Below, one piece after another: positions 54,241 through 64,000 of a stretch of 64,000 nt of DNA. The DNA lies in the NCBI GenBank assembly GCA_947172645.1, contig CAMWBY010000009.1, positions 1 through 64,000 of the forward strand, read 5' to 3'. The stretch comes from an uncultured Lachnospiraceae bacterium. Lineage in GTDB: Bacteria; Bacillota; Clostridia; Lachnospirales; Lachnospiraceae. The notes beneath the pieces were generated by a model that ran no database searches, had not been told where the DNA came from, and saw only the letters and a program-made list of their open reading frames with translations. The stretch's first letter is position 1; each line of letters begins with the position of its first letter. Made by a program: the position numbers and the translations under genes.

Positions 54241-57200
54241 ATGAGAGAAAAAGGGATGAATAACAAAATAATTTTGGAAATTATTTTGTTAGTTATGAGC
54301 TTGATGTTATTAAATATTTTTATGCAGGAATTTATAACAAAATTTTTTATTGGTTTTGGAGTAGTAATTGCTTTGGTAATAATGTTTGCTAAAGGTTTGG
54401 AGATTAACGGCATGTCTGATATTTTTGCTGTTATATTATTGGATGTAGCTCCGGTTGTTAGTCACTTTTTTTCGGATATTACATTTATACGTAAAGTAAC
54501 TGGTCTATATACGAGAGCTGCTCAATATTTTTGCCAGATGATAGGAAAAGATATTGTTGTAAATATTAGCGGAGAAATGGGATTTACAATAACAATTATC
54601 ATAATTTTTGTATGTTTTGAGGTATGGAATTGTACTAAAGACCGTACTGGTATGAAGATTTTACATGGAAGTAAAGATGAAGAACTGAAAGAAAAGAATT
54701 TTACAGAAAAGAGTGAAATGTTCTGTAAAACTCTCCATCAGTGGTTGTATGATTTGAATCGGGAGGCAAATTGGAATGAGAATCAATTCACTTCACTGGA
54801 AGCAGAAGTAGAAATGGACAATGGTGGAAAACGGAAGAAAAAATATGAAGATTTGTTAAAGTGCTTAAAAAGTAACCGTCGTCGTGGAACAGTTTATTTG
54901 GTGTTGGGATCACCTGGGTCTGGGAAAAGCGTATCCATGAGGAAATTATGCTTAGATTTACTAAAAGAGTCAAAAAAGACAAAAAAGATTCCAGTCTATA
55001 TTAATTTGAAAGAGTGGAATGAAGATTGGAATTTGGATCACTTGCCAGAGAAAAGGGATTTAGAAATATTTATACGAAAAACGTTTGAAGCGAAAGCTGA
55101 TTTTTCGACAGAAAGCTTTTTAGATGAATATTTTCAACGGATGCTTGAAGACGGACGATGGTACTTCATATTTGACTCGTTTGATGAAATGCCATGTCTT
55201 ATGGGAAAGAAAAATTGTCAGGAGTTGATTGATGAGATATCTGCCCTGCTCTATCAGTTTATGACAGGACCCAATCAGAGCGGAGGTGTTGTTGCATCGC
55301 GCTTGTATAAGGCACCTTCTTCGGCGGTGGGGGCATCTGTTACTTTGAAGATACAGGAATTTAGCGATATAAAGATTAAAACTATGCTTAAAAAATATCT
55401 TGTACATTATGAAGAAGTGACAAAGCTTTTATTTGATGGAAGAGAGGATTTAGTGGCTCTTTGCCGGAATCCGTTTTATTTGGCTTTGTTGACTAACTAT
55501 ATTTCAGATAGAGGCAATATATTACCGAAAAATCAGATGGAATTATATCATAGTTTTGTCGACGGAAGATTAAAAAAATGTAAAGGGAAACTTGAGAAGG
55601 AGAATTTGAGCGAAAACGAGGTTTATCGGGCAGCCAAACAATTGGCTTCGTTTATGCAGGAAAAGGATGAATGCGGATTGGAATGTCCAACTGGCTTTTT
55701 TTATCAGAGAGAGAATGAAGCGTATTGGCGAAAAGTGTTTTCTATACTCAAGTACGCAAAAATATGTCGATTGGGTGGTCAGGATGAAACAATTTCATTT
55801 GTTCATCGTAGATTTCAAGAATTCTTTTTGGTAGAAAATATTATCGAACAAAAACAGGAGATTGAATATGAGCATTATCGTGACATTCTTAGTGATGCAG
55901 GCATGAGGGATGCATTGGTGCTTTACTGTGAAGTGGCTGACGAAGAAAAAGCGATGGAAATAGCAGAGTTTTGTTGGAAAACAATACAAACAAATATAAA
56001 GTTTGCAGATAATATACATACAAAAGAGGGGCAGGAACTGGTTCGTGTTTTATATTTTATGAGAGAAGCATTCCGAAACAGGAAGCAAGTGTTATCCAAT
56101 TTTAATGAAGATTTTTATCAACTGGTAAAAAAGGTATTTGATAAAACGAATAAAGAGGAAAATAATGTTTGTGTTGATTATGTTATAATGTTGGCGCTTA
56201 TTAATTCCATGGTTTTATTTTCAAGCGCACAGTTGAAAAGCTTGGTGTTGATGGTGTTTGAAATGAAAAACCGTTGGCTGAATGATATTATTATGCAGAA
56301 CTGTCGGATAATTGATGTACTTGATTATCATATTGAAAATGAGTTTGTTCGTTATTTCGCCAAGATGAATATTACAGTGTTCATGAAAAGGTTTCTGGAT
56401 ATGCGGTTTTCTTTATCCATGTCGAAAAAGTTTAAGTATGTCAGAAAAATGCATGCTATGATAATGGTTCTAAATATGACATGCATATTAGTGACGTTCT
56501 CTATCATTTTTTTTCTGACTTTAAATATGTTTGATTACTATTTAAATGGCAAGGTATTTCAAATAAATATTGTACAGAATCTCATTCAGTATGTTAGCTT
56601 AAATGGAAAGAATCATATTGTGATGAATCAGCCTGTAACAATAGTTTTTGTGTTTATTATTTTTATGCTGTTTTCTATGTTATTTAGTTTGTTAATACTT
56701 CCTATGCAAAGATTTTTTCTCTTTCAGTGGGGCATTATTTTGATAGAATTAAGTTTAGGTTTCGCTTTACTTAATAATATGAAAGTGGGAGTTATAGGTA
56801 AAGTAGAATTGGCAATTTGTACAATAGTTATTCTATCAAGTATAACTTTTATATATGTTCATGATTTAAAATTTTATTTGGAGAATAGAAACTTCGCAAA
56901 ATATATGTTGCTAAATGCAATTAGAATATATAGAAAAACTATTTTGCCGAGAGCACTTTATTTTGGCTTTATAGTTATAATGGTAATTTCTCCTCGAAAG
57001 TTAACTATTATAGTATTGATAGTGCTTTTTGTATTTTTTGTCGGTTTGATTTGTTTGGTGGTGTATTATGGATTTCACTATCTAAAAGATTGTATGTGGA
57101 TTAGAAAGAATCCTGCAGTGGGCAGTTGTATGCAACGTAGGGAACTTGAAAACATTTTGGGTAATATTCGTTTTAGTCGGCTAAAATATAAGTATGTAGA

Positions 57201-57339
57201 TATGCTTTTATTGCAACATACTGAATTGATAGGCGAATGGACGGGCACTGTTCGACCTCAGTACCGCGATGATCGAGTTAACCATGTCTTGGCAAAACTG
57301 GATTGTATCAAATTGGATTCCTGCGACTATTTATTTTAG
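54241..57339 (+). CDS. Membrane-anchored NACHT-like (STAND) NTPase
   Basis: A 1032-residue protein. Residues ~9-52 and ~114-131 are membrane helices (IILEIILLVMSLMLLNIF, FFIGFGVVIALVIMFAK, FTITIIIIFVCFEVW). The NTPase core begins ~216: Walker A GSPGSGKS at 223-230 and Walker B FIFDSFDEMP near 309-318, with the D-x-x-D-E pattern of NACHT proteins. A helical segment follows, with HRRFQEFFLVENII near residue 522. From ~740 to ~945 there are about six more membrane helices, then a soluble tail. GGAG five bases before ATG 54241 supports the start. Codons are strongly AT-rich, unlike flanking genes. Bacterial NACHT proteins often act in phage defence; that role is inferred. Confidence 0.8.
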   Translation: MREKGMNNKIILEIILLVMSLMLLNIFMQEFITKFFIGFGVVIALVIMFAKGLEINGMSDIFAVILLDVAPVVSHFFSDITFIRKVTGLYTRAAQYFCQMIGKDIVVNISGEMGFTITIIIIFVCFEVWNCTKDRTGMKILHGSKDEELKEKNFTEKSEMFCKTLHQWLYDLNREANWNENQFTSLEAEVEMDNGGKRKKKYEDLLKCLKSNRRRGTVYLVLGSPGSGKSVSMRKLCLDLLKESKKTKKIPVYINLKEWNEDWNLDHLPEKRDLEIFIRKTFEAKADFSTESFLDEYFQRMLEDGRWYFIFDSFDEMPCLMGKKNCQELIDEISALLYQFMTGPNQSGGVVASRLYKAPSSAVGASVTLKIQEFSDIKIKTMLKKYLVHYEEVTKLLFDGREDLVALCRNPFYLALLTNYISDRGNILPKNQMELYHSFVDGRLKKCKGKLEKENLSENEVYRAAKQLASFMQEKDECGLECPTGFFYQRENEAYWRKVFSILKYAKICRLGGQDETISFVHRRFQEFFLVENIIEQKQEIEYEHYRDILSDAGMRDALVLYCEVADEEKAMEIAEFCWKTIQTNIKFADNIHTKEGQELVRVLYFMREAFRNRKQVLSNFNEDFYQLVKKVFDKTNKEENNVCVDYVIMLALINSMVLFSSAQLKSLVLMVFEMKNRWLNDIIMQNCRIIDVLDYHIENEFVRYFAKMNITVFMKRFLDMRFSLSMSKKFKYVRKMHAMIMVLNMTCILVTFSIIFFLTLNMFDYYLNGKVFQINIVQNLIQYVSLNGKNHIVMNQPVTIVFVFIIFMLFSMLFSLLILPMQRFFLFQWGIILIELSLGFALLNNMKVGVIGKVELAICTIVILSSITFIYVHDLKFYLENRNFAKYMLLNAIRIYRKTILPRALYFGFIVIMVISPRKLTIIVLIVLFVFFVGLICLVVYYGFHYLKDCMWIRKNPAVGSCMQRRELENILGNIRFSRLKYKYVDMLLLQHTELIGEWTGTVRPQYRDDRVNHVLAKLDCIKLDSCDYLF

Positions 57340-57650
57340 TACATAGAGGTGTTAAATGTGAGATTTTTTTAACGGACTTTTTGAAATATTTCTTTGCATA
57401 GGAAGATACATCAATAGAAACCATATTGAAAAAGGATTCACACATAGGGACATCCGGAGTTTGTAGCAGCCATGAATCTGGAACTTGCTCAATATTTGAA
57501 AAAGAATATAATCTAAATACGAAATCACTGGAAATATGAGAAAATATGATATTTCTGACGAAGAGGTGGAAGGACATCTGTAAAAGAAAGGTGTGCCGTA
57601 AGTGCCTGTTTTGTGGGGCTTGCGGCATATTTTATTATTTATTATGGTTT
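57340..57650. other. Gene-poor spacer after the NACHT gene
   Basis: About 310 AT-rich bases without a supported gene, terminator or recognisable fragment. A frame from 57546 (MIFLTKRWKDICKRKVC) runs into the Rpn-type remnant but its first part has no family resemblance. Confidence 0.5.
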
Positions 57651-57890
57651 ATCAAAAGTCGTTATTTTGGGAAAACGAATGAGTTATTTGACGATGCTTC
57701 CCATATCGTCTATGTGAATGGAAACTATAAGAGAGAGGACACAATTGGAAGATTGATGCATGACTTTGGCTGTAAGGAAGCGGAAGATATGTATTATCCG
57801 AAATTGGCTAAAGGGGTGCGGTATTTTAAGGAGGAAGGAGGGCGCTAGATATTTGGTGGACGTCCATTGGCGCGGATCGGAGTGGAACGG
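57651..57890 (+). pseudogene. Decayed Rpn/PD-(D/E)XK transposase-like gene, copy 2
   Basis: Reads NELFDDASHIVYVNGNYKRE, GRLMHDFGCKEAEDMYYPKL and GVRYFKEEGG, then a stop at 57846-57848. It is a direct repeat of 53552-53788, aligned nearly gap-free across ~240 bases and including a stretch after the stop (CGCGGAT.GGAGTGGAACGG). It lacks both ends of the gene and, unlike copy 1, has no C-terminal tail. The two copies frame the NACHT gene. Confidence 0.7.
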
Positions 57891-57897
57891 AGGCTTA

Positions 57898-57941
57898 TCG
57901 TCTGAATATATTCTGTTCAGCAGTTAATGAAATTGACAAAC
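57898..57941 (+). repeat. Short direct repeat, left copy
   Basis: Within 57901-57940, 35 of 40 positions match 63941-63980 on the same strand (cores GAATATATTCT, TTCAGCAGTT and TGAAATTG). It begins eight bases after the Rpn-type remnant and lies before the AAA+/Sel1 operon. Confidence 0.7.
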
Positions 57942-58086
57942 AGGGACAGAAAGAAAGTCAAACTAGCCGCATTTTTTGTGCAGGATGCCGAAAGAATCTA
58001 TAATATATAATTGTTATTTTTTTAACGAACTATTCTTACAAAACATATGTTTGGTATTTTGAAAAATAGGATATTAAAGTATAATT

Positions 58087-58311
58087 TTGTTAATCAGAGA
58101 AAGCGTCGATGCTGCCAAAAGAGCGAAGAACTGTGTGTTTTGCAATAACTGGATAGGGGACGCCCAGATGCAGTTTAAAAATGCTATTGTGGGATACGAG
58201 TATGAAGCAAGCGCAAAAGGAAAATGTACAAGAAGGAATGGAGCCGGCACAGGCGCAAGTTATTCATGTCCCAATTATGAGCCAAGTATGGATGCAAGGA
58301 AATTGCTTTGA
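58087..58311 (+). CDS. Small Cys-rich (zinc-ribbon-like) protein, probably 5'-truncated
   Basis: An open frame of 74 codons: KNCVFCNNWIGDAQMQFKN, then GYEYEASAKGKCTRRNG and SYSCPNYEPS. The spacing C-x-x-C, then C, then C suggests a small metal-binding fold. There is no ATG before the first Cys pair. A TTG at 58087 lacks a ribosome site and overlaps a possible -10 (TATAAT at 58080-58085). The start may have been lost at the repeat boundary. It ends 19 bases before the AAA+ ATPase start. Coding is supported by its protein-like composition only. Confidence 0.45.
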   Translation: MLIRESVDAAKRAKNCVFCNNWIGDAQMQFKNAIVGYEYEASAKGKCTRRNGAGTGASYSCPNYEPSMDARKLL

Positions 58312-58330: not shown

Positions 58331-59866
58331 ATGTTACATTTACCGACTGTAAAAGATAATCTGGGAGGATATATCGATGCCGGTTTTCCGATTCTTTATA
58401 TTTGTACCTATGAGGAAGAAAAGGCTGACAGGTATATATCTTCTGTAGCCGGAAGAAAAAAGGTTCTCGAGTGGAATGGGTCTGATGGACTTGTTAATTT
58501 CAAAACGAAAGCGCCGCTTTTACCGGACCAGTCACTTGAGGCAGTGTTGGATTTCCTGAAAATAGGTAAGGAATTAGACCGTACTCTGCTTGTCATCAAA
58601 GATGCAGACAGTCTGTTGGCGGCCAGGGACGATGCCGGACGGCCTGAATCTGATAAAGTAACAGCCTTATTGAAAGAGATTGCCCGGAGAATTCGTAAAG
58701 GAAATGGGGGTATTGATGCGACGGTAATCATTGTCTCATCAGTTTTACATATTCCGCAGCCTTTGGAAAAACTGGTCACTGTATTGGAACTGGAACTTCC
58801 GGATGAGACAGAAATCAAGGAGATGATAGACAGGTTTATACAGGACAATGGCATCTCTACTGTCCCTGAAAGATTTTTGGAAGAGATGGTAATAGCCTTT
58901 AAAGGGTTATCAGAATCAGAGATTGGCGACTTGCTCAATTTGGCTGTAGCCCAGGAGGGAGAACTGACCGGGAAAACCCTCAAACTCATTTTTGACCAGA
59001 AACAGCAGATGATTCTGAAAGCCGGGATTCTTGAAATGATTCCGTTAAAAGAGGGCATTGCAGATATCGGTGGCCTGGAAAACTTAAAAGAATGGCTGAA
59101 GAAAAAGGCGAAGGTATTCAAGGACATCAAAAAGGCGATGGATTTCGGTGTCGCTATGCCAAAGGGCGTCCTGATAGCGGGCGTTCCGGGATGCGGTAAA
59201 AGTTTAAGCGCGAAAGCGGCAGGAAAACTGTTTGATATGCCGCTGCTGCGGCTGGACATGGGACGCCTGATGGGAAAATATTTAGGTGAGTCAGAGGAAA
59301 ATATGAGAAAGGCCATACGCCTGGCAGAAGCTATTTCCCCCTGTGTGCTCTGGGTGGATGAACTGGAAAAAGCCTTTGCCGGGATAGGGAGCGGGGGCAG
59401 TGGCGGCGAAGTGACTACCCGCCTATTCGGTACATTTTTGACATGGATGCAGGAAAAGACGAGCGCTGCATTTGTCGTGGCTACTGCCAATGACATCACA
59501 AAACTACCGCCGGAATTGCTGCGCAAAGAGCGTTTTGACGAGATATTTTATGTCCCCCTGCCGAATAAGGAGGAACGCAGGAAGATTTTTGAGATTCACC
59601 TGGGAAAACGGCGAAAAGAGGATATATCAGGGATTGATATGGAAAGACTGGTCGCCGAAACGGAAGGATACAGCGGCGCGGATATCGAGGGCGTGGTCAG
59701 TGAAAGCATTGAGAGCGCATTTGTCAAAGGAAGCCAGAGGCTTTCGACGGAGGATATACTGGACTGCATACGTAACACACATTCGCTGTCTGAGATTATG
59801 AAGGAGCCATTGAAGGAAATGGCAAAGCTGTATGAAGACAGGAAATTCAAGAAAGCATCGAGGTGA
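58331..59866 (+). CDS. AAA+ ATPase of the Ycf46/SpoVK/Vps4-like type
   Basis: A 511-residue ATPase. The N-terminal ~230 residues resemble a degenerate AAA module without a P-loop: FPILYICTYEEEKADRYI, then LLVIKDADSLLAARDD and ATVIIVSSVLHIPQPLEKL. The C-terminal module is complete: IGGLENLKEWLKKKA, Walker A GVPGCGKS (284-291), pore-loop region MGKYLGESEENMRKA, Walker B CVLWVDELEKAFAG (Asp/Glu 343-344), a Gly/Ser-rich loop, sensor 1 FVVATANDI and arginine finger LLRKERFDEIF. GGAGGGG before the ATG at 58331 sets the start. It is six bases from the next gene and leads the island operon. Likely a protein unfoldase or remodeller of its partners. Confidence 0.88.
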   Translation: MLHLPTVKDNLGGYIDAGFPILYICTYEEEKADRYISSVAGRKKVLEWNGSDGLVNFKTKAPLLPDQSLEAVLDFLKIGKELDRTLLVIKDADSLLAARDDAGRPESDKVTALLKEIARRIRKGNGGIDATVIIVSSVLHIPQPLEKLVTVLELELPDETEIKEMIDRFIQDNGISTVPERFLEEMVIAFKGLSESEIGDLLNLAVAQEGELTGKTLKLIFDQKQQMILKAGILEMIPLKEGIADIGGLENLKEWLKKKAKVFKDIKKAMDFGVAMPKGVLIAGVPGCGKSLSAKAAGKLFDMPLLRLDMGRLMGKYLGESEENMRKAIRLAEAISPCVLWVDELEKAFAGIGSGGSGGEVTTRLFGTFLTWMQEKTSAAFVVATANDITKLPPELLRKERFDEIFYVPLPNKEERRKIFEIHLGKRRKEDISGIDMERLVAETEGYSGADIEGVVSESIESAFVKGSQRLSTEDILDCIRNTHSLSEIMKEPLKEMAKLYEDRKFKKASR

Positions 59867-59872
59867 TATATC

Positions 59873-60931
59873 ATGGGCGAACATGGGTCTATAGAAGAAA
59901 AAACATTGAAAGATATTTTGGGAAGCTTTATTGATTCTTACATGGAACGTGACGGCAGTGTGGGATTTTCAGACTGGCTTGGAAACCATTTGCAGAGAGA
60001 GTTACCGGCTCTTTCCAGAGAAGACAGCAGAAAGCTGGCGGATGAGATTATTGCGGCCATCCGGGTTTATGACAGGACGCTGGAAGCGGTGAGAGCGGCT
60101 GCTGACGGTGGAACATCGAAAGAAGAATGGCTGGCCGGACACCTGGCTGAGGCTTATGCAGATATGCCCATGAATGATGCAGGCGAGAAGATAAGGCAGA
60201 TTGAGGAAAACCTTACCAGTTCTAACCTGCAGCTTATGCAGGGAATCGGCGGTGCGCTGACAGAAGATGACGATGTCGTGGATGTCGATTCTGTAGAATG
60301 GAATGCGTACAGTGTTAAGGACAGGGCTTATGGTATCGGGCAGCAAGCCGTCTTATCCGGCCTGGCCGTTGCTGCAAATGTCATGAAGGAAAGAATGGAG
60401 AAGAATGACAGCGCCGATATAGGGGAGATTGTTGGGAAGACGTTACAGGATGGATTGATAAAAGACCCGGAGGAGGCTAAGGCGGTTGTTGCCGGAGCAG
60501 TCAAGGCGGCAGTTGAAAACGGGGCCGGAGATATAATCCCGGCGGACGCCTCCATAGATGTGATAGGCAATATAGCAGGAATGGCTGTCGAGAGCGCAGA
60601 AGCGTTATATGATGTGGCAGTAGGTGAGAGCACTGCAGTGGAGGCCATGGACAGGATTGGCATGGCAGCCGTTGCAGCAGGCGGCTGTTATGCCAGCGAC
60701 GCCCTGAAAGGCTGTCTAGTAAGGGTTCCCTTTATTGGCCCAGTGCTTGTAGACTTACTCGGAGGCTTGCTTGACCATATGAAAGGCCCTAAATTTACTG
60801 AGGATGTCTATACTGTGGTACGTAACACCGCTACGGCTACATGGGAAGGGATTAAGAAATCACGTGTTGTAAAATCTGTCGGTCGTATGGTGGATAAGGC
60901 GAGAAATACAATGAAAAAGATATTTTATTAG
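59873..60931 (+). CDS. Unrecognised Ala/Gly-rich helical protein (352 aa)
   Basis: A 352-residue protein, mostly helical. Residues 1-60 have a small domain (FIDSYMERDGSVGFSDWLGN). A central region is rich in Ala, Val and Gly (IGQQAVLSGLAVAANVMKER, AVVAGAVKAAVENGAGDIIP, VIGNIAGMAVESAEALYDVA). A hydrophobic, glycine-zipper-like stretch follows at ~255-300 (GMAAVAAGGCYASDALKG, VPFIGPVLVDLLGGLLDHM), then a basic C-terminal tail. No signal peptide. I do not recognise a characterised family. It could insert in membranes or form an oligomer handled by the ATPase. It lies six bases after the AAA+ gene and 41 bases before the Sel1 gene. Confidence 0.8.
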   Translation: MGEHGSIEEKTLKDILGSFIDSYMERDGSVGFSDWLGNHLQRELPALSREDSRKLADEIIAAIRVYDRTLEAVRAAADGGTSKEEWLAGHLAEAYADMPMNDAGEKIRQIEENLTSSNLQLMQGIGGALTEDDDVVDVDSVEWNAYSVKDRAYGIGQQAVLSGLAVAANVMKERMEKNDSADIGEIVGKTLQDGLIKDPEEAKAVVAGAVKAAVENGAGDIIPADASIDVIGNIAGMAVESAEALYDVAVGESTAVEAMDRIGMAAVAAGGCYASDALKGCLVRVPFIGPVLVDLLGGLLDHMKGPKFTEDVYTVVRNTATATWEGIKKSRVVKSVGRMVDKARNTMKKIFY

Positions 60932-60972
60932 GTAGGCTGTGGCTTATTTCATGATAGCGGGAGGATAGTCGG

Positions 60973-63087
60973 ATGGCGGTGAAATTTCCATTGAAGATGC
61001 CGGATGGGACGGCAGTAAGAACGATTGAAGAATTGAGGGAGCATTTTGACCTTACAGCGGTACTTGATTTTTACAGCAGCGGTAAGCTGACTGACTGGCT
61101 GGAAATCAGATATTATAATAAAGAGGCTGAAAAAGTGAAAGCTTTGGAGCCTTCTTCGGATGATTTCAGGAAAAATCTATGCAGCATACTGGGAGTAGAG
61201 TATCTGGAGAATGAAGATGACGGACCGGACTTAGATGAGATTACAAAGAAAAGGGAACGCCGTGAACTGCTGAAAAAATATACGACGGATGACAGGATAC
61301 TCACGTTAGTTGATAGGATTGCTTTCACACAGGAGGAAATAAAAGATTTATTGAAACATCCCGGCTTATTGGAAAAGGATGGCGAGGGAAATAGGGTAAT
61401 CTACCTGTTTGGTGAACGGTTCACCATACCGGGGAACATAGGAGACGTCACATACAGAGGAGTGAACAGACCGGCTGTCTCCTTCGATGGTGAGACCATG
61501 AGAGCGGATATCGATTTTCAAGGTTTGGAATTTGATATAGAGAAGTATGTAAATGATGATTTTAAGCAATTCTATAAGTTTTTTGACAACAATCCGAAAC
61601 TGGGGGTCAAGATGCTTTTGGATGTGGCGGAACAAGGGTCTTCATCCGTTCAATTTGTTTTAGGCCGTTGCTATGCCGAAGGTTTTGGTATAGAGCAAAA
61701 CGATGAAGAAGCCGTAAAGTGGTATCGAAAAGCAGCGGAACAAGGTGATGCGAGGGCACAGAATAATTTGGGTGGCTGCTATGCGAGGGGGCAGGGGGTT
61801 AAGCAAGATTATGGAGAAGCTTTCAGGCTGTACCGAAAAGCAGCGGAGCAGGGACGCATGATTGCCCAAACAAATGTGGGGGATTGTTACAGGAGAGGCC
61901 AAGGAGTCGAACAAAATCTCGAGGAGGCAGTCAAGTGGTATCGAAAGGCAACGGCGCAAGGCTTTGCGGGGGCGCAGAAGAAGCTCGGTGATTGTTATTA
62001 TTATGGGGAAGGAGTCGGAGAAGATAAACGGGAGGCAGTAAGGTGGTATCAAAAAGCGGCGGAGCAAGGCAATGCAGTTGCGCAGAGTAATCTGGGCGAT
62101 TGTTATGATAATGGGATTGGAGTCAGAAAGGACAAACAGGAAGCAATAAGGTGGTATCGAAAAGCGGCGGAGCAAGGAGATGCGTGGTCGCAGAATAACC
62201 TTGGCTGTTACTATTATAATGGGGATGGAGTTGGAAAGAATAAACAGGAAGCAATAAGGTGGTATCGAAAAGCGGCCGAACAAGGAGATGCGCGGGCGCA
62301 GAGTAACCTTGGCAGTTGCTATTATGACGGGGATGGAGTCGAACAAGATTATGAAGAAGCATTCAAGTGGTTTCAAAAAGCAGCGGAACAGGGGGATATG
62401 ACCGCTCAACGTAAGATGGGGGATTGTTACAGAGACGGCAGAGGAGTCAAACAAAATATGCAGGAGACTGTCAAGTGGTATCGAAAAGCTGCGGAACAAG
62501 GCGATGTGTGGTCGCAGAATACTCTGGGCGAGTGGTATGATTATGGGGATGTAGTCGCAGAAAATAAGCAGGAGGCAGTCAAGTGGTATCGAATGGCAGC
62601 GGAACAAGGTGATGCGCGGTCACAGAATGGTTTGGGAGTTTGTTATATGAATGGGGAGGGGGTAATGCAAGATTATGCAGAGGCATACAGGTGGTTTAGA
62701 AAAGCAGCGCAGCAGGGGAATGGGACTGCCCAACGAAATATGGGGGATTGTTACAGAGACGGCAAAGGAATTACACAAAATATTGAGGAAGCCGTAAAGT
62801 GGTATCAAAAAGCTGCGGAGCAAGGTAATGCGTGGGCACAGTATAATCTTGGCGTTTGTTATTATAAGGGAAAGGGAGTTGAAAAGAACAAACAGGAAGC
62901 GGTAAAATGGTATCAAAAAGCTGCGGAACAGGGTAATGCGCAGGCGCAGAGGAAACTTGGCGATTGCTATATGAATGGGGATGGAATTGAAGCAGATTAT
63001 ATAGAAGCATTCTCTTGGTATGATAGTGCCGCGGAACAAGGTGATGTGAAGGCGCAGAAGAAGTTGGGTGTACTTTGGGGAAGATGA
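60973..63087 (+). CDS. Sel1-repeat protein with a distinct N-terminal domain
   Basis: A 704-residue cytoplasmic scaffold. Residues 1-110 are a charged domain (PDGTAVRTIEELREHFD, LTDWLEIRYYNKEAEKVKAL, FRKNLCSILGVEYL). Residues ~110-215 contain a helix-rich part and a predicted beta part (RVIYLFGERFTIPGNIGDVT). From ~218 there are 13 full and one partial 36-residue Sel1 repeats, pattern A-E-Q-G-D-A-x-A-Q-x-N-L-G-x-C-Y-x-x-G-x-G-V. Sel1 solenoids bind proteins. GGAGG eight bases before ATG 60973 sets the start. No signal peptide. It closes the core of the AAA+ operon, suggesting it is a target-recognition or adaptor subunit; that is inference. Confidence 0.9.
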   Translation: MAVKFPLKMPDGTAVRTIEELREHFDLTAVLDFYSSGKLTDWLEIRYYNKEAEKVKALEPSSDDFRKNLCSILGVEYLENEDDGPDLDEITKKRERRELLKKYTTDDRILTLVDRIAFTQEEIKDLLKHPGLLEKDGEGNRVIYLFGERFTIPGNIGDVTYRGVNRPAVSFDGETMRADIDFQGLEFDIEKYVNDDFKQFYKFFDNNPKLGVKMLLDVAEQGSSSVQFVLGRCYAEGFGIEQNDEEAVKWYRKAAEQGDARAQNNLGGCYARGQGVKQDYGEAFRLYRKAAEQGRMIAQTNVGDCYRRGQGVEQNLEEAVKWYRKATAQGFAGAQKKLGDCYYYGEGVGEDKREAVRWYQKAAEQGNAVAQSNLGDCYDNGIGVRKDKQEAIRWYRKAAEQGDAWSQNNLGCYYYNGDGVGKNKQEAIRWYRKAAEQGDARAQSNLGSCYYDGDGVEQDYEEAFKWFQKAAEQGDMTAQRKMGDCYRDGRGVKQNMQETVKWYRKAAEQGDVWSQNTLGEWYDYGDVVAENKQEAVKWYRMAAEQGDARSQNGLGVCYMNGEGVMQDYAEAYRWFRKAAQQGNGTAQRNMGDCYRDGKGITQNIEEAVKWYQKAAEQGNAWAQYNLGVCYYKGKGVEKNKQEAVKWYQKAAEQGNAQAQRKLGDCYMNGDGIEADYIEAFSWYDSAAEQGDVKAQKKLGVLWGR
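61630..63085 (+). repeat. Tandem 108-bp coding repeats (Sel1 array)
   Basis: About 13.5 units of 108 bases encode the Sel1 repeats. Neighbouring units share long runs (for example AAGTGGTATCGAAAAGC and GCGGAGCAAGG), and pairs such as those at ~62120 and ~62230 are close to identical. This suggests recent duplication or gene conversion inside the gene. Confidence 0.85.
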
Positions 63088-63143
63088 TGAAGGAACTCGG
63101 ACGAAGATAAACTCATTTTAAGCAGGCAGGAGAAGAGCATACA

Positions 63144-63470
63144 ATGATAAAAAAGAAACCCAAGAAACTGAAAAAAATACCCGCTGATTTGGTGTCATAC
63201 ATCCAGATTGAGACAGAAGCAATCAAAGATTTCAACGATAAACAGATGATATCCAGTTACTGCCTTAGTAAGCTGGAAATGGTCAACTGGTATCTTGATT
63301 TACTGGAGGTTGGTTCCGAAAAGTACATTGTTCCCCAGGGCAGGGCATATCTGGAAACAGTCAGGGACCAGCTTATGGAGTGCCATAGACAGATTATGAG
63401 CGTAAAGATTAAGAATCCCAATGACCGCCCTATTCTTGATATTAAATATCCGAAAGGATATGAAGGGTAG
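63144..63470 (+). CDS. Small uncharacterised protein (108 aa)
   Basis: A 108-residue basic protein: MIKKKPKKLKKIPADLV, then a helical part (IQIETEAIKDFNDKQMISSY, KLEMVNWYLDLLEVG, YLETVRDQLMECHRQIMSV) and a Pro-rich end. GGAGAAG lies upstream of ATG 63144 with a long spacer. It follows the Sel1 gene by 56 bases on the same strand. No family recognised. Predicted helical bundle; no membrane segment. Confidence 0.65.
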   Translation: MIKKKPKKLKKIPADLVSYIQIETEAIKDFNDKQMISSYCLSKLEMVNWYLDLLEVGSEKYIVPQGRAYLETVRDQLMECHRQIMSVKIKNPNDRPILDIKYPKGYEG

Positions 63471-63557
63471 AATTATTTTATCATAAAAAGCCGGATTGGG
63501 TAGTAGCGTTCACCGCTGTGGCTATGGTGGCATGCCCTGTCGTCAAGGTACCTATCG

Positions 63558-63761
63558 ATGCGGATGACGATTGAGGATTTTGTCCACATTTCATGTGAGC
63601 GAAGGTGCTTCCCAAAATGGGGAGCGCTATTTTCTTATGTCGTGGAAAAGTATTTCGGAGTGAAAAGCAAATGGGAAATAGCTTCTAGCCTCAATATATT
63701 TGAAAGCAAACACTATTACAGTCAAAAACAATCAAAAGAATATAACAGGAGGATGCAGTGA
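63558..63761 (+). CDS. Small uncharacterised protein (67 aa), coupled to the next gene
   Basis: A 67-residue frame, MRMTIEDFVHISCERRCFPKWG, then VVEKYFGVKSKWEIASSLN and a polar tail. No family recognised and the ribosome site is weak (AAGG upstream). The stop overlaps the GTG of the next small gene by four bases (GTGA). Its own last 15 bases carry the AGGAGG of that gene. This coupling is the main reason to accept it. Confidence 0.5.
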   Translation: MRMTIEDFVHISCERRCFPKWGALFSYVVEKYFGVKSKWEIASSLNIFESKHYYSQKQSKEYNRRMQ

Positions 63762-63916
63762 AAAAAGAGAAACTAAGAAGAAAACCATGTGCCAAATGCC
63801 CTTATACACTGGGACTGGTAAAAACGGTGGCCAATCCCTGCCCGGCGTGTAAGCACAACGGCTACAGCTCTTATGAATGGTTCCTGAAAATGCAGAGCCA
63901 GGGGAAAGAGACGTAG
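63758..63916 (+). CDS. Small zinc-ribbon-like protein (52 aa)
   Basis: Starts at GTG 63758 behind a perfect AGGAGG (63747-63752, five-base spacer). The product begins KKEKLRRKPCAKCPYTLGLV and has a second knuckle CPACKHNGYSSYEW, so two C-x-x-C pairs about 20 residues apart, a rubredoxin/zinc-ribbon-like layout. It is coupled by a GTGA overlap to the gene before it. Its function is unknown. Confidence 0.6.
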   Translation: MKKEKLRRKPCAKCPYTLGLVKTVANPCPACKHNGYSSYEWFLKMQSQGKET

Positions 63917-63918
63917 TG

Positions 63919-64000
63919 ATGCAATGGAGTGGGCATATTGTCCGAATATATTCTATTCAGCAGTTCGTGAAATTGCCAAAAGATTTAGGAGTGTTAAAGG
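63919..64000 (+). CDS. Possible start of a further gene running off the window
   Basis: From the ATG at 63919 the frame reads MQWSGHIVRIYSIQQFVKLP and stays open to the end. The alternative frame from 63925 reads MEWAYCPNIFYSAVREIAKR and is also open. Bases 63938-63981 are the right copy of the short direct repeat. In the left copy the same frame as the first option carries a UGA. Which frame is used cannot be decided from 80 bases. Confidence 0.3.
   Translation, partial: MQWSGHIVRIYSIQQFVKLPKDLGVLK
63938..63981 (+). repeat. Short direct repeat, right copy
   Basis: The counterpart of 57898-57941 in direct orientation. Together the copies bracket the AAA+/352-aa/Sel1 operon and the small genes. 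Confidence 0.7.

Follow-up and report, generated by a model that had tools for sequence, protein, structure and literature searches.

The described systems closest to the locus reported here are the Type III-A CoCoNuTs. According to the passages of PMC11090510 that deal with them, a SpoVK-family Cdc48-like ATPase, of which only the C-terminal module is active, adjoins a glycine-zipper protein that combines a bacteriocin-like zipper with an inactivated PD-(D/E)xK fold; the same passages invoke a role of Cdc48 in freeing chains from stalled ribosomes. Here we analyse bases 1 to 64,000 of contig 9 (CAMWBY010000009.1; this whole stretch is called the window below) from the 3.87-Mb genome of an uncultured Lachnospiraceae bacterium. 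It carries an operon in which a two-module AAA+ ATPase, a 352-residue helical protein and a 704-residue Sel1-repeat protein (60973-63087) are arranged head to tail; 6 bases separate the first two genes and 41 bases the last two, an order and spacing that the first-pass annotation had described correctly. We call the family of the 352-residue protein A1, the ATPase A2 and the N-terminal part of the Sel1 protein A3, for each of which one profile was built. Loci are cited by label, L013 being the window locus in a stretch that runs past the end of the window (L013 8013-11852 is about 64013-67852 of contig 9). The three genes are a real conserved cassette and one system, as had been proposed: profile searches placed A1, A2 and A3 on one strand in 30 of the 31 loci in which an ATPase of the stand-alone, A1-linked type is complete.

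Comparison with described systems

Searches of an open-licence full-text library, outside which most subscription papers lie, turned up no description of the stand-alone trio, and term look-ups in PMC7159879 and PMC12839542 yielded no passage that deals with it. The pair of ATPase and zipper protein, however, is already in print in its CoCoNuT setting (in the passages of PMC11090510 cited above), so that the earlier label 'uncharacterised' is only partly true. On our reading of their gene content, two loci in our collection are themselves Type III-A CoCoNuTs. In Escherichia coli ZF34 (L093), downstream of a BREX-1 system with insertion sequence (IS) elements between, the annotated genes are VWA, A1, ATPase, Card1-like, VWA, PP2C, kinase, helicase and DUF2357; on an enterobacterial plasmid (L059), VWA, CARF, PP2C and kinase genes are annotated before the stretch ends. 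The L059 protein was found by A1 profiles that contain the window's 352-residue protein (E 4e-39 and 5e-64), and DNA like the L059 locus occurs in 4 of 5426 E. coli genomes. An annotated mcr-10.1 gene is found some 6 kb away from the L059 pair, and 15 plasmids carry an A1 that is at least 99% identical.

The likeness to these systems extends to several levels. The pair is homologous and runs A1 then ATPase, with a gap of 2 bases in both L059 and L093; there is a single Walker A motif, and the window ATPase has the same layout of a degenerate first and an active second AAA module; and A1 relatives show a C-terminal zipper together with a PD-(D/E)xK-like layout. The L059 ATPase, moreover, ends in a Biotin_lipoyl domain, as in the account of PMC11090510. 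The trio loci differ in carrying the A3 adaptor and in having no CoCoNuT core, TerY-P triad or CARF protein in the neighbourhoods seen. Several A1 proteins, including that of the window, lack the PD-(D/E)xK-like domain, and whereas the fold is given as inactivated in the passages of PMC11090510, the E, VD and QxK positions are in place in L059 and in nine clostridial long forms. At the window locus, no CoCoNuT VWA, PP2C, kinase, CARF or McrB/McrC-like core protein was found in the operon and 10 flanking proteins scanned, nor, by eye, among the open reading frames (ORFs) up to L013 20000.

The active AAA module also matches IetA of PADLOC (IteA of NCBIfam; E 1.5e-30, residues 256-488), but at 96.2 bits against an NCBIfam cut-off of 510 and with the first module unmatched. 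The partner IetS is an S8-family peptidase, and no peptidase match appeared in the 9 operon or neighbouring and 10 flanking proteins scanned. Cdc48/p97 has two active AAA modules, unlike the window ATPase, which has one Walker A motif by pattern and reaches 127 bits with the CDC48 model against a cut-off of 802.65. Ycf46 of cyanobacteria and plastids resembles the window ATPase in its two-module layout with a degenerate first module; two relatives on cyanobacterial plasmids (L105, L106) are without A1 or A3 and fall outside the clade of the trio ATPases. Finally, a full-length relative (37% identity) on the Treponema plasmid pTRESU01 (L058 7995-9530) differs in lying among genes annotated as VgrG/Pvc8-type and baseplate genes, with no A1 or A3.

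Linkage, distribution and parts of the cassette

Within the 31 complete loci, A1 adjoined the ATPase without exception, and the one locus that has no A3 (L040) lies on a contig that begins at the ATPase. Set aside from the tally were two loci at contig ends (L045, L075), one with ATPase remnants only (L046), and L059 and L093, which have A1 and ATPase without A3. Since the ATPase or A1 led to most of the loci, the tally measures the company of these two; it comes to 27 if each of the near-copy pairs L071/L080, L073/L074 and L041/L042 is counted once. Finding the homologues usually apart, which the first-pass annotation had named as a refutation of its proposal, was not the outcome; the recurrence excludes chance. 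The gene order varies (A3-ATPase-A1, ATPase-A1-A3, ATPase-A3-A1 and A1-A3-ATPase), and therefore the association outlives rearrangement. Two A3 and two ATPase genes accompany a single A1 in L071 and L080, and in L089 a single ORF of 830 residues, beside A1, joins positions 1-67 of the A3 profile (its first third) to the ATPase. A GTPase gene with a DUF697 domain (L089 10720-12015) adjoins this fused gene.

The distribution of the cassette is patchy. The 352-residue protein matched 5 of 145 genomes, its own included, and in all five an ATPase homologue with 59-100% identity was directly adjacent. A pattern scan of a genome-contig collection based on the ATPase alignment returned 21 loci; the A1 search matched 8 of 392 genomes of the order (2 of them weakly) and 5 of 398 genomes of the phylum, and the A3 search 7 of 299 genomes of the family. 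Two of the phylum matches (G757, E 7e-5; G1006, E 2.5e-4), with no ATPase nearby, were taken as chance, and the match in G323 (L075) is weak (E 2e-5) and cut by a contig end. Hosts are mostly Bacillota; trios on plasmids were seen in Exiguobacterium (L056) and Microcystis (L057). Single-sequence tblastn found nothing with the 352-residue protein against plasmids and phages or with one A3 protein against plasmids, which reflects limited sensitivity rather than absence, because profiles find A1 and A3 on plasmids (L056, L057; A1 on L059). An A1 relative in a record labelled Bacteriophage sp. (L094) was not counted as phage carriage, the record being an unverified 4.6-kb scaffold.

The ATPase itself reaches further. 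It gave 126 matches to phage records, none covering more than 80% of its length, and 1407 to plasmid records, 38 of them covering at least 80%. The neighbourhoods of 10 such hits comprised two trios (L056, L057), one CoCoNuT-type locus (L059) and seven without A1 or A3 (L058, L060, L103-L107). In a tree of 38 ATPase sequences, 29 trio and 2 CoCoNuT rows stand on one side of a branch with 100/99 support, and on the opposite side are seven ATPases with no A1 or A3 nearby, drawn from a contractile-injection-type cluster, a satellite phage, a phage, and actinobacterial and cyanobacterial plasmids. Some of these relatives have company of their own: DUF2997 genes accompany both the cyanobacterial plasmid copies (L105, L106), together with DUF1257 genes, and the actinobacterial ones (L103, L104), together with 4Fe-4S genes, which is another recurrent neighbourhood of this ATPase. 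In the Streptococcus satellite phage Javan368 (L060 5163-9143), a related two-module ATPase accompanies proteins of 582 and 171 residues whose role is unassigned.

The first-pass annotation had described the first AAA module of the window ATPase as degenerate, and this holds. Pfam places AAA at residues 280-410 and AAA_lid_3 at 435-477; a single Walker A, a single Walker B, an ATAN motif and a single RxxRFD motif were all found by pattern in the C-terminal half, and a pattern search detected no P-loop in residues 1-240. The C-terminal module is nearest to Cdc48/p97 among solved structures, and the first-pass annotation had called the protein Ycf46/Vps4-like. By pattern, each of 41 listed ATPases has a single Walker A. 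In the second region of homology (SRH) the window ATPase alone has E where the other 40 have G (L107 is unlisted, as the pattern did not match it). PHROG family phrog_8638 matches the window ATPase over its full length (E 7e-120) and was rejected as a family marker: it was matched in 14 of 14 control genomes, giving no separation from other AAA proteins.

A3 is a shared adaptor domain whose C-terminal module, judging by the domain matches, is exchanged among Sel1, RCC1, SH3, CobW and unrecognised forms. In the window protein, Pfam finds 13 Sel1 stretches (500.9 bits, above cut-off), corresponding to 13 units of exactly 36 residues with a mean pairwise identity of 56%; a partial unit at the end is presumably the fourteenth repeat of the earlier count. 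The A3 domain itself has no significant Pfam or PDB match (best PDB E 0.49), and the window protein no NCBIfam match. Twenty A3-type proteins were scanned: eight have Sel1 above cut-off (one of them with RCC1 as well), one SH3_3 and one a CobW GTPase, the A3 domain of this last case sitting in a longer ORF ahead of the annotated start; the other ten carry none of these modules above cut-off. Several loci have two or three A3 genes. The exchange is evident even between close relatives, since the ATPases of the window and of L026 are 82% identical, yet one A3 tail has 13 Sel1 repeats and the other a single Sel1 plus RCC1. The Sel1 protein thus looks like the recruiting part, as the first-pass annotation had supposed, given a shared N-terminal domain, an exchangeable C-terminus and the partial fusion to the ATPase in L089.

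The 352-residue protein had been put forward as a possible membrane-active or oligomeric effector with a glycine-zipper-like hydrophobic stretch. This fits its relatives better than the window copy. Among 27 A1 proteins examined, 16 have at least 480 residues, and a GxxxGxxxG zipper near the C-terminus is present in all 16 and in three short ones (L030, L056, L057); it is absent from the window protein and from L026, L027, L028, L029, L031, L034 and L043. The layout IAE ... NSVD ... QxK is kept in all nine long A1 proteins of clostridia and Phascolarctobacterium (alignment A4) and in L059, and the remaining long proteins depart from at least one of these patterns. By this motif layout (E, VD, QxK) and by the description in the passages of PMC11090510, the middle domain of the long forms fits a PD-(D/E)xK core. 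The window A1 has no such domain and retains a hydrophobic stretch at about residues 282-300. Pfam gave sub-threshold matches of glycine-zipper type in four of six distant A1 proteins scanned. On the ATPase tree the short A1 form, a label set by length under which the split genes in L036 and L076 also count as short, needs five changes, at least three of them forced by well-supported branches; the A1 middle domain has therefore been lost or gained repeatedly. The best PDB match for A1, a designed helical nanopore (E 4e-4), was taken as helical resemblance and not as homology. On the Cronobacter plasmid pCDU1 (L092 6885-12467), a WYL regulator lies with a 472-residue protein and a 1068-residue protein without Pfam match; the 472-residue protein resembles the L059 A1 by tblastn (28% over 49%), was missed by the A1 profile, and is perhaps an A1-like protein with another partner.

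The window locus and its surroundings

The features of the operon are collected in Table 1. A conserved gene for a four-cysteine protein, overlooked in the first pass, ends 19 bases upstream of the ATPase gene; its product is a probable zinc-binding protein and the gene the probable first of the operon. phmmer found it in the same cassettes of L026 (E 3e-36) and, more weakly, L028 (4e-6) and L027 (3e-4), and the L026 copy as query also found L030 and L029. The three small proteins that the first-pass annotation placed after the trio have ORFs at 63144, 63558 and 63758, and homologues exist for the first and third. In the 30 related loci searched, the 108-residue protein has a homologue in the closest related operon (L026) only (76% identity over 74 residues, dN/dS 0.13), the third has homologues in L026, L028, L029 and L043, and the 67-residue ORF has none.

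Among named records, the ATPase closest to that of the window is the one in L026, from a Lachnospiraceae metagenome-assembled genome. Between the window and L026, the ratio of nonsynonymous to synonymous divergence (dN/dS, NG86) is 0.05 for both the ATPase and the first cysteine protein and 0.22 for A1, with dS in the range 1.5-2.4 (2.4 for the ATPase and 1.8 for the first cysteine protein).

Table 1. Operon features in the window, with coordinates along its forward strand.
Feature	Position	Strand	Basis
Four-cysteine protein, 74 aa, TTG start as listed, CxFCxxW...C...C	58087..58311	+	ORF list and phmmer homologues
Cdc48-like AAA+ ATPase, 511 aa, degenerate N-terminal and active C-terminal module	58331..59866	+	ORF, Pfam, motifs
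Walker A GVPGCGKS of the active module, residues 284-291	59180..59203	+	Motif pattern
SRH motif RKERFD	59522..59539	+	Motif pattern, compared across ATPases
352-aa helical effector-like protein, A1 short form	59873..60931	+	ORF, alignments
N-terminal adaptor domain (A3) of the Sel1 protein	60973..61638	+	Alignments A3 and A5
Array of 13 Sel1 repeat units, each 36 aa, followed by a partial one	61639..63087	+	Pfam Sel1, E 1.3e-155
108-aa protein	63144..63470	+	L026 homologue, E 4e-37
67-aa ORF, may not be a gene	63558..63761	+	ORF list
52-aa four-cysteine protein (second small Cys protein), GTG start	63758..63916	+	Homologues, E 8e-18 to 2e-6

In other lineages a WYL-type regulator holds the place that the four-cysteine protein occupies in the window lineage. 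Of 30 loci searched, 14 have such a regulator upstream in the same orientation, two of these being the source of the WYL queries, and a 15th (L079) has a convergent one beside its lone A3 gene. Pfam confirmed WYL in three of four copies scanned (L018, L032, L077) and not in the 222-residue copy of L038, and the background was 52 WYL matches in 21 whole genomes. Two WYL queries found no such regulator in the window locus. On the tree the loci with the four-cysteine label group as one clade (83/92), which comprises the window together with two Lachnospiraceae and four Ruminococcus loci, the label of L043 having been set by eye as phmmer listed only its second cysteine protein; no WYL regulator was found in these seven loci, although the contig of L029 begins only shortly upstream of its ATPase. 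In 48% of cases, as PMC9122601 reports, WYL regulators of the BrxR family are located together with defence systems.

The surroundings of the cassette are often mobile or variable. Ahead of the trio, the window carries a NACHT ATPase gene (54241-57339; 1032 residues, NCH3 C-terminal domain), possibly a bacterial NACHT defence gene, with a GC content of about 0.33-0.34 against 0.45-0.48 for the trio. The Exiguobacterium plasmid trio (L056) adjoins genes annotated as an McrC-family protein and an AAA ATPase, and PADLOC matches 2-4 kb from other trios were MkoB-like (L027), TmtA-like (L032) and SoFic-like (L028). Recombinase-like genes near L039 and L032 are homologous to each other and were called serine recombinases by eye; a DUF932 gene lies beside L077, an actin-like gene lies within about 6 kb in G044, and a helical protein of 205-240 residues occurs in some loci only. 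Directly 3' of the operon, just right of the window, are two rtcB genes and an RF-1-domain gene that we take to be prfH-type (L013 8013-11852). The second of these rtcB genes and the prfH-type gene also adjoin the L026 cassette (L026 283-2018); the prfH-type gene, found in only 2 of 30 loci searched, does not belong to the system. Protection of an E. coli strain from colicin E3 by RtcB2-PrfH is reported in PMC9223846. The gene flanking the operon downstream, a sensor kinase, has too many paralogues to serve in a synteny test. Two further observations, both by eye, concern the edges of the operon: the end of an ORF at 57546-57848 resembles a PD-(D/E)XK family transposase at L013 12215-13024 and looks like a transposase remnant, and similar short stretches at about 57895-57945 and 63940-63985 possibly represent a duplicated gene end framing the operon.

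Proposed function and alternatives

Taken together, the parts suggest that the trio is probably a member of the immune repertoire, made up of an ATPase motor, an adaptor whose repeats can be exchanged and a helical protein with effector-like features. That the cassette as such is an immune system, directed against phages or mobile elements, is the likeliest reading, at about even odds; if it is, it may perhaps be of the abortive type. A defence role had already been suggested in the first pass, and the homologous pair in CoCoNuT operons, the WYL regulators and some neighbours of defence type speak for it indirectly. Sel1 repeats are protein-binding modules, and ATPases of the Vps4 type act by remodelling proteins. 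In the mechanism that we infer, the C-terminal module of A3, in the window the 13 Sel1 repeats, would bind a trigger and A3 would dock it onto the AAA+ hexamer, whose single active ring, through ATP hydrolysis, would pull on, unfold or assemble A1. A1, thus freed or assembled, would act at the membrane by its zipper or a hydrophobic hairpin, and the long forms might also act on nucleic acid. As the window A1 lacks both the nuclease-like domain and the zipper, it would have to act through its remaining hydrophobic stretch or as an oligomer.

Several points weigh against an immune function. We know of no phenotype for any member of the cassette. The ATPase tree has very long branches (L060, L107 and the CoCoNuT pair), whose placement is unsure, and the WYL label is scattered over it (7 changes; 61 of 500 shuffles were as low). 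The PADLOC scan covered 10 hand-picked neighbours with no control set, five of which had no match, and the matches cover parts of the models. Only three of the seven A3-positive genomes have the trio nearby and four do not (L078, L079, L081, L082), L081 being at a contig edge and L082 a weak A3 match. No viral contig was found with two peptide patterns each from the ATPase and A3 alignments. The cassette is absent in six relatives that have the upstream flanking gene, with no clean empty site. Furthermore, the window copy departs from conserved features, having no zipper and an E in its SRH, and it could be weakened.

The strongest of the alternatives is a role in stress proteostasis, in which a Cdc48-like unfoldase with a Sel1 or RCC1 adaptor would extract damaged or stalled proteins alongside the adjacent RNA-repair and ribosome-rescue genes. 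The closeness of the C-terminal module to Cdc48/p97 among solved structures, the rtcB and prfH-type genes next to both the window and L026 operons, and the appeal to Cdc48 and stalled ribosomes in the passages of PMC11090510 are all consistent with this. However, a prfH-type gene in just 2 of 30 loci, a patchy distribution that suits conflict better than housekeeping, and, in relatives of A1, a zipper and a nuclease-like domain that have no obvious part in proteostasis, make it unlikely. More doubtful still is that the trio is cargo serving integrative elements and plasmids by addiction, exclusion or maintenance, with a harmful A1 held in control by A3 and the ATPase. Here the recombinase-like genes, the plasmid copies in Exiguobacterium, Microcystis and L059, and the DUF932 and actin-like neighbours would fit, but there is no constant antitoxin-like partner, the 205-240-residue helical protein being confined to some loci, and WYL regulators are often associated with defence (the 48% given for the BrxR family in PMC9122601).

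That this is an operon of a Ycf46-type house-keeping ATPase, engaged in metabolic regulation like the Ycf46 proteins of cyanobacteria and plastids, appears quite improbable: the two-module layout and the full-length relatives on cyanobacterial plasmids (L105, L106) point that way, but those relatives keep DUF1257/DUF2997 neighbours, lack A1 and A3 and fall outside the clade. Three unrelated genes side by side by chance, for which only the differing dN/dS of ATPase and A1 could be cited, can be practically dismissed: the trio recurs in 30 of 31 loci, which refutes it, and part of A3 is fused to the ATPase in L089.

Returning to the immune reading, we tentatively extend it, with somewhat less than even confidence, to an unnamed stand-alone immune machine in which A3 would load triggers and a Cdc48-like ring with one active tier would fire a zipper-type A1, the ATPase-effector pair having been taken up by CoCoNuTs; the four-cysteine and WYL branches would then be two modes of its control. 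If this is true, an AAA+ unfoldase chassis with swappable recognition would be a recurrent immune design in Bacillota and beyond, apart from STAND/NLR receptors, and the SpoVK/zipper insert of CoCoNuTs would be explained as a stand-alone system that they captured. The swapping of Sel1, RCC1, SH3 and CobW on one adaptor would then offer a direct route to testing recognition.

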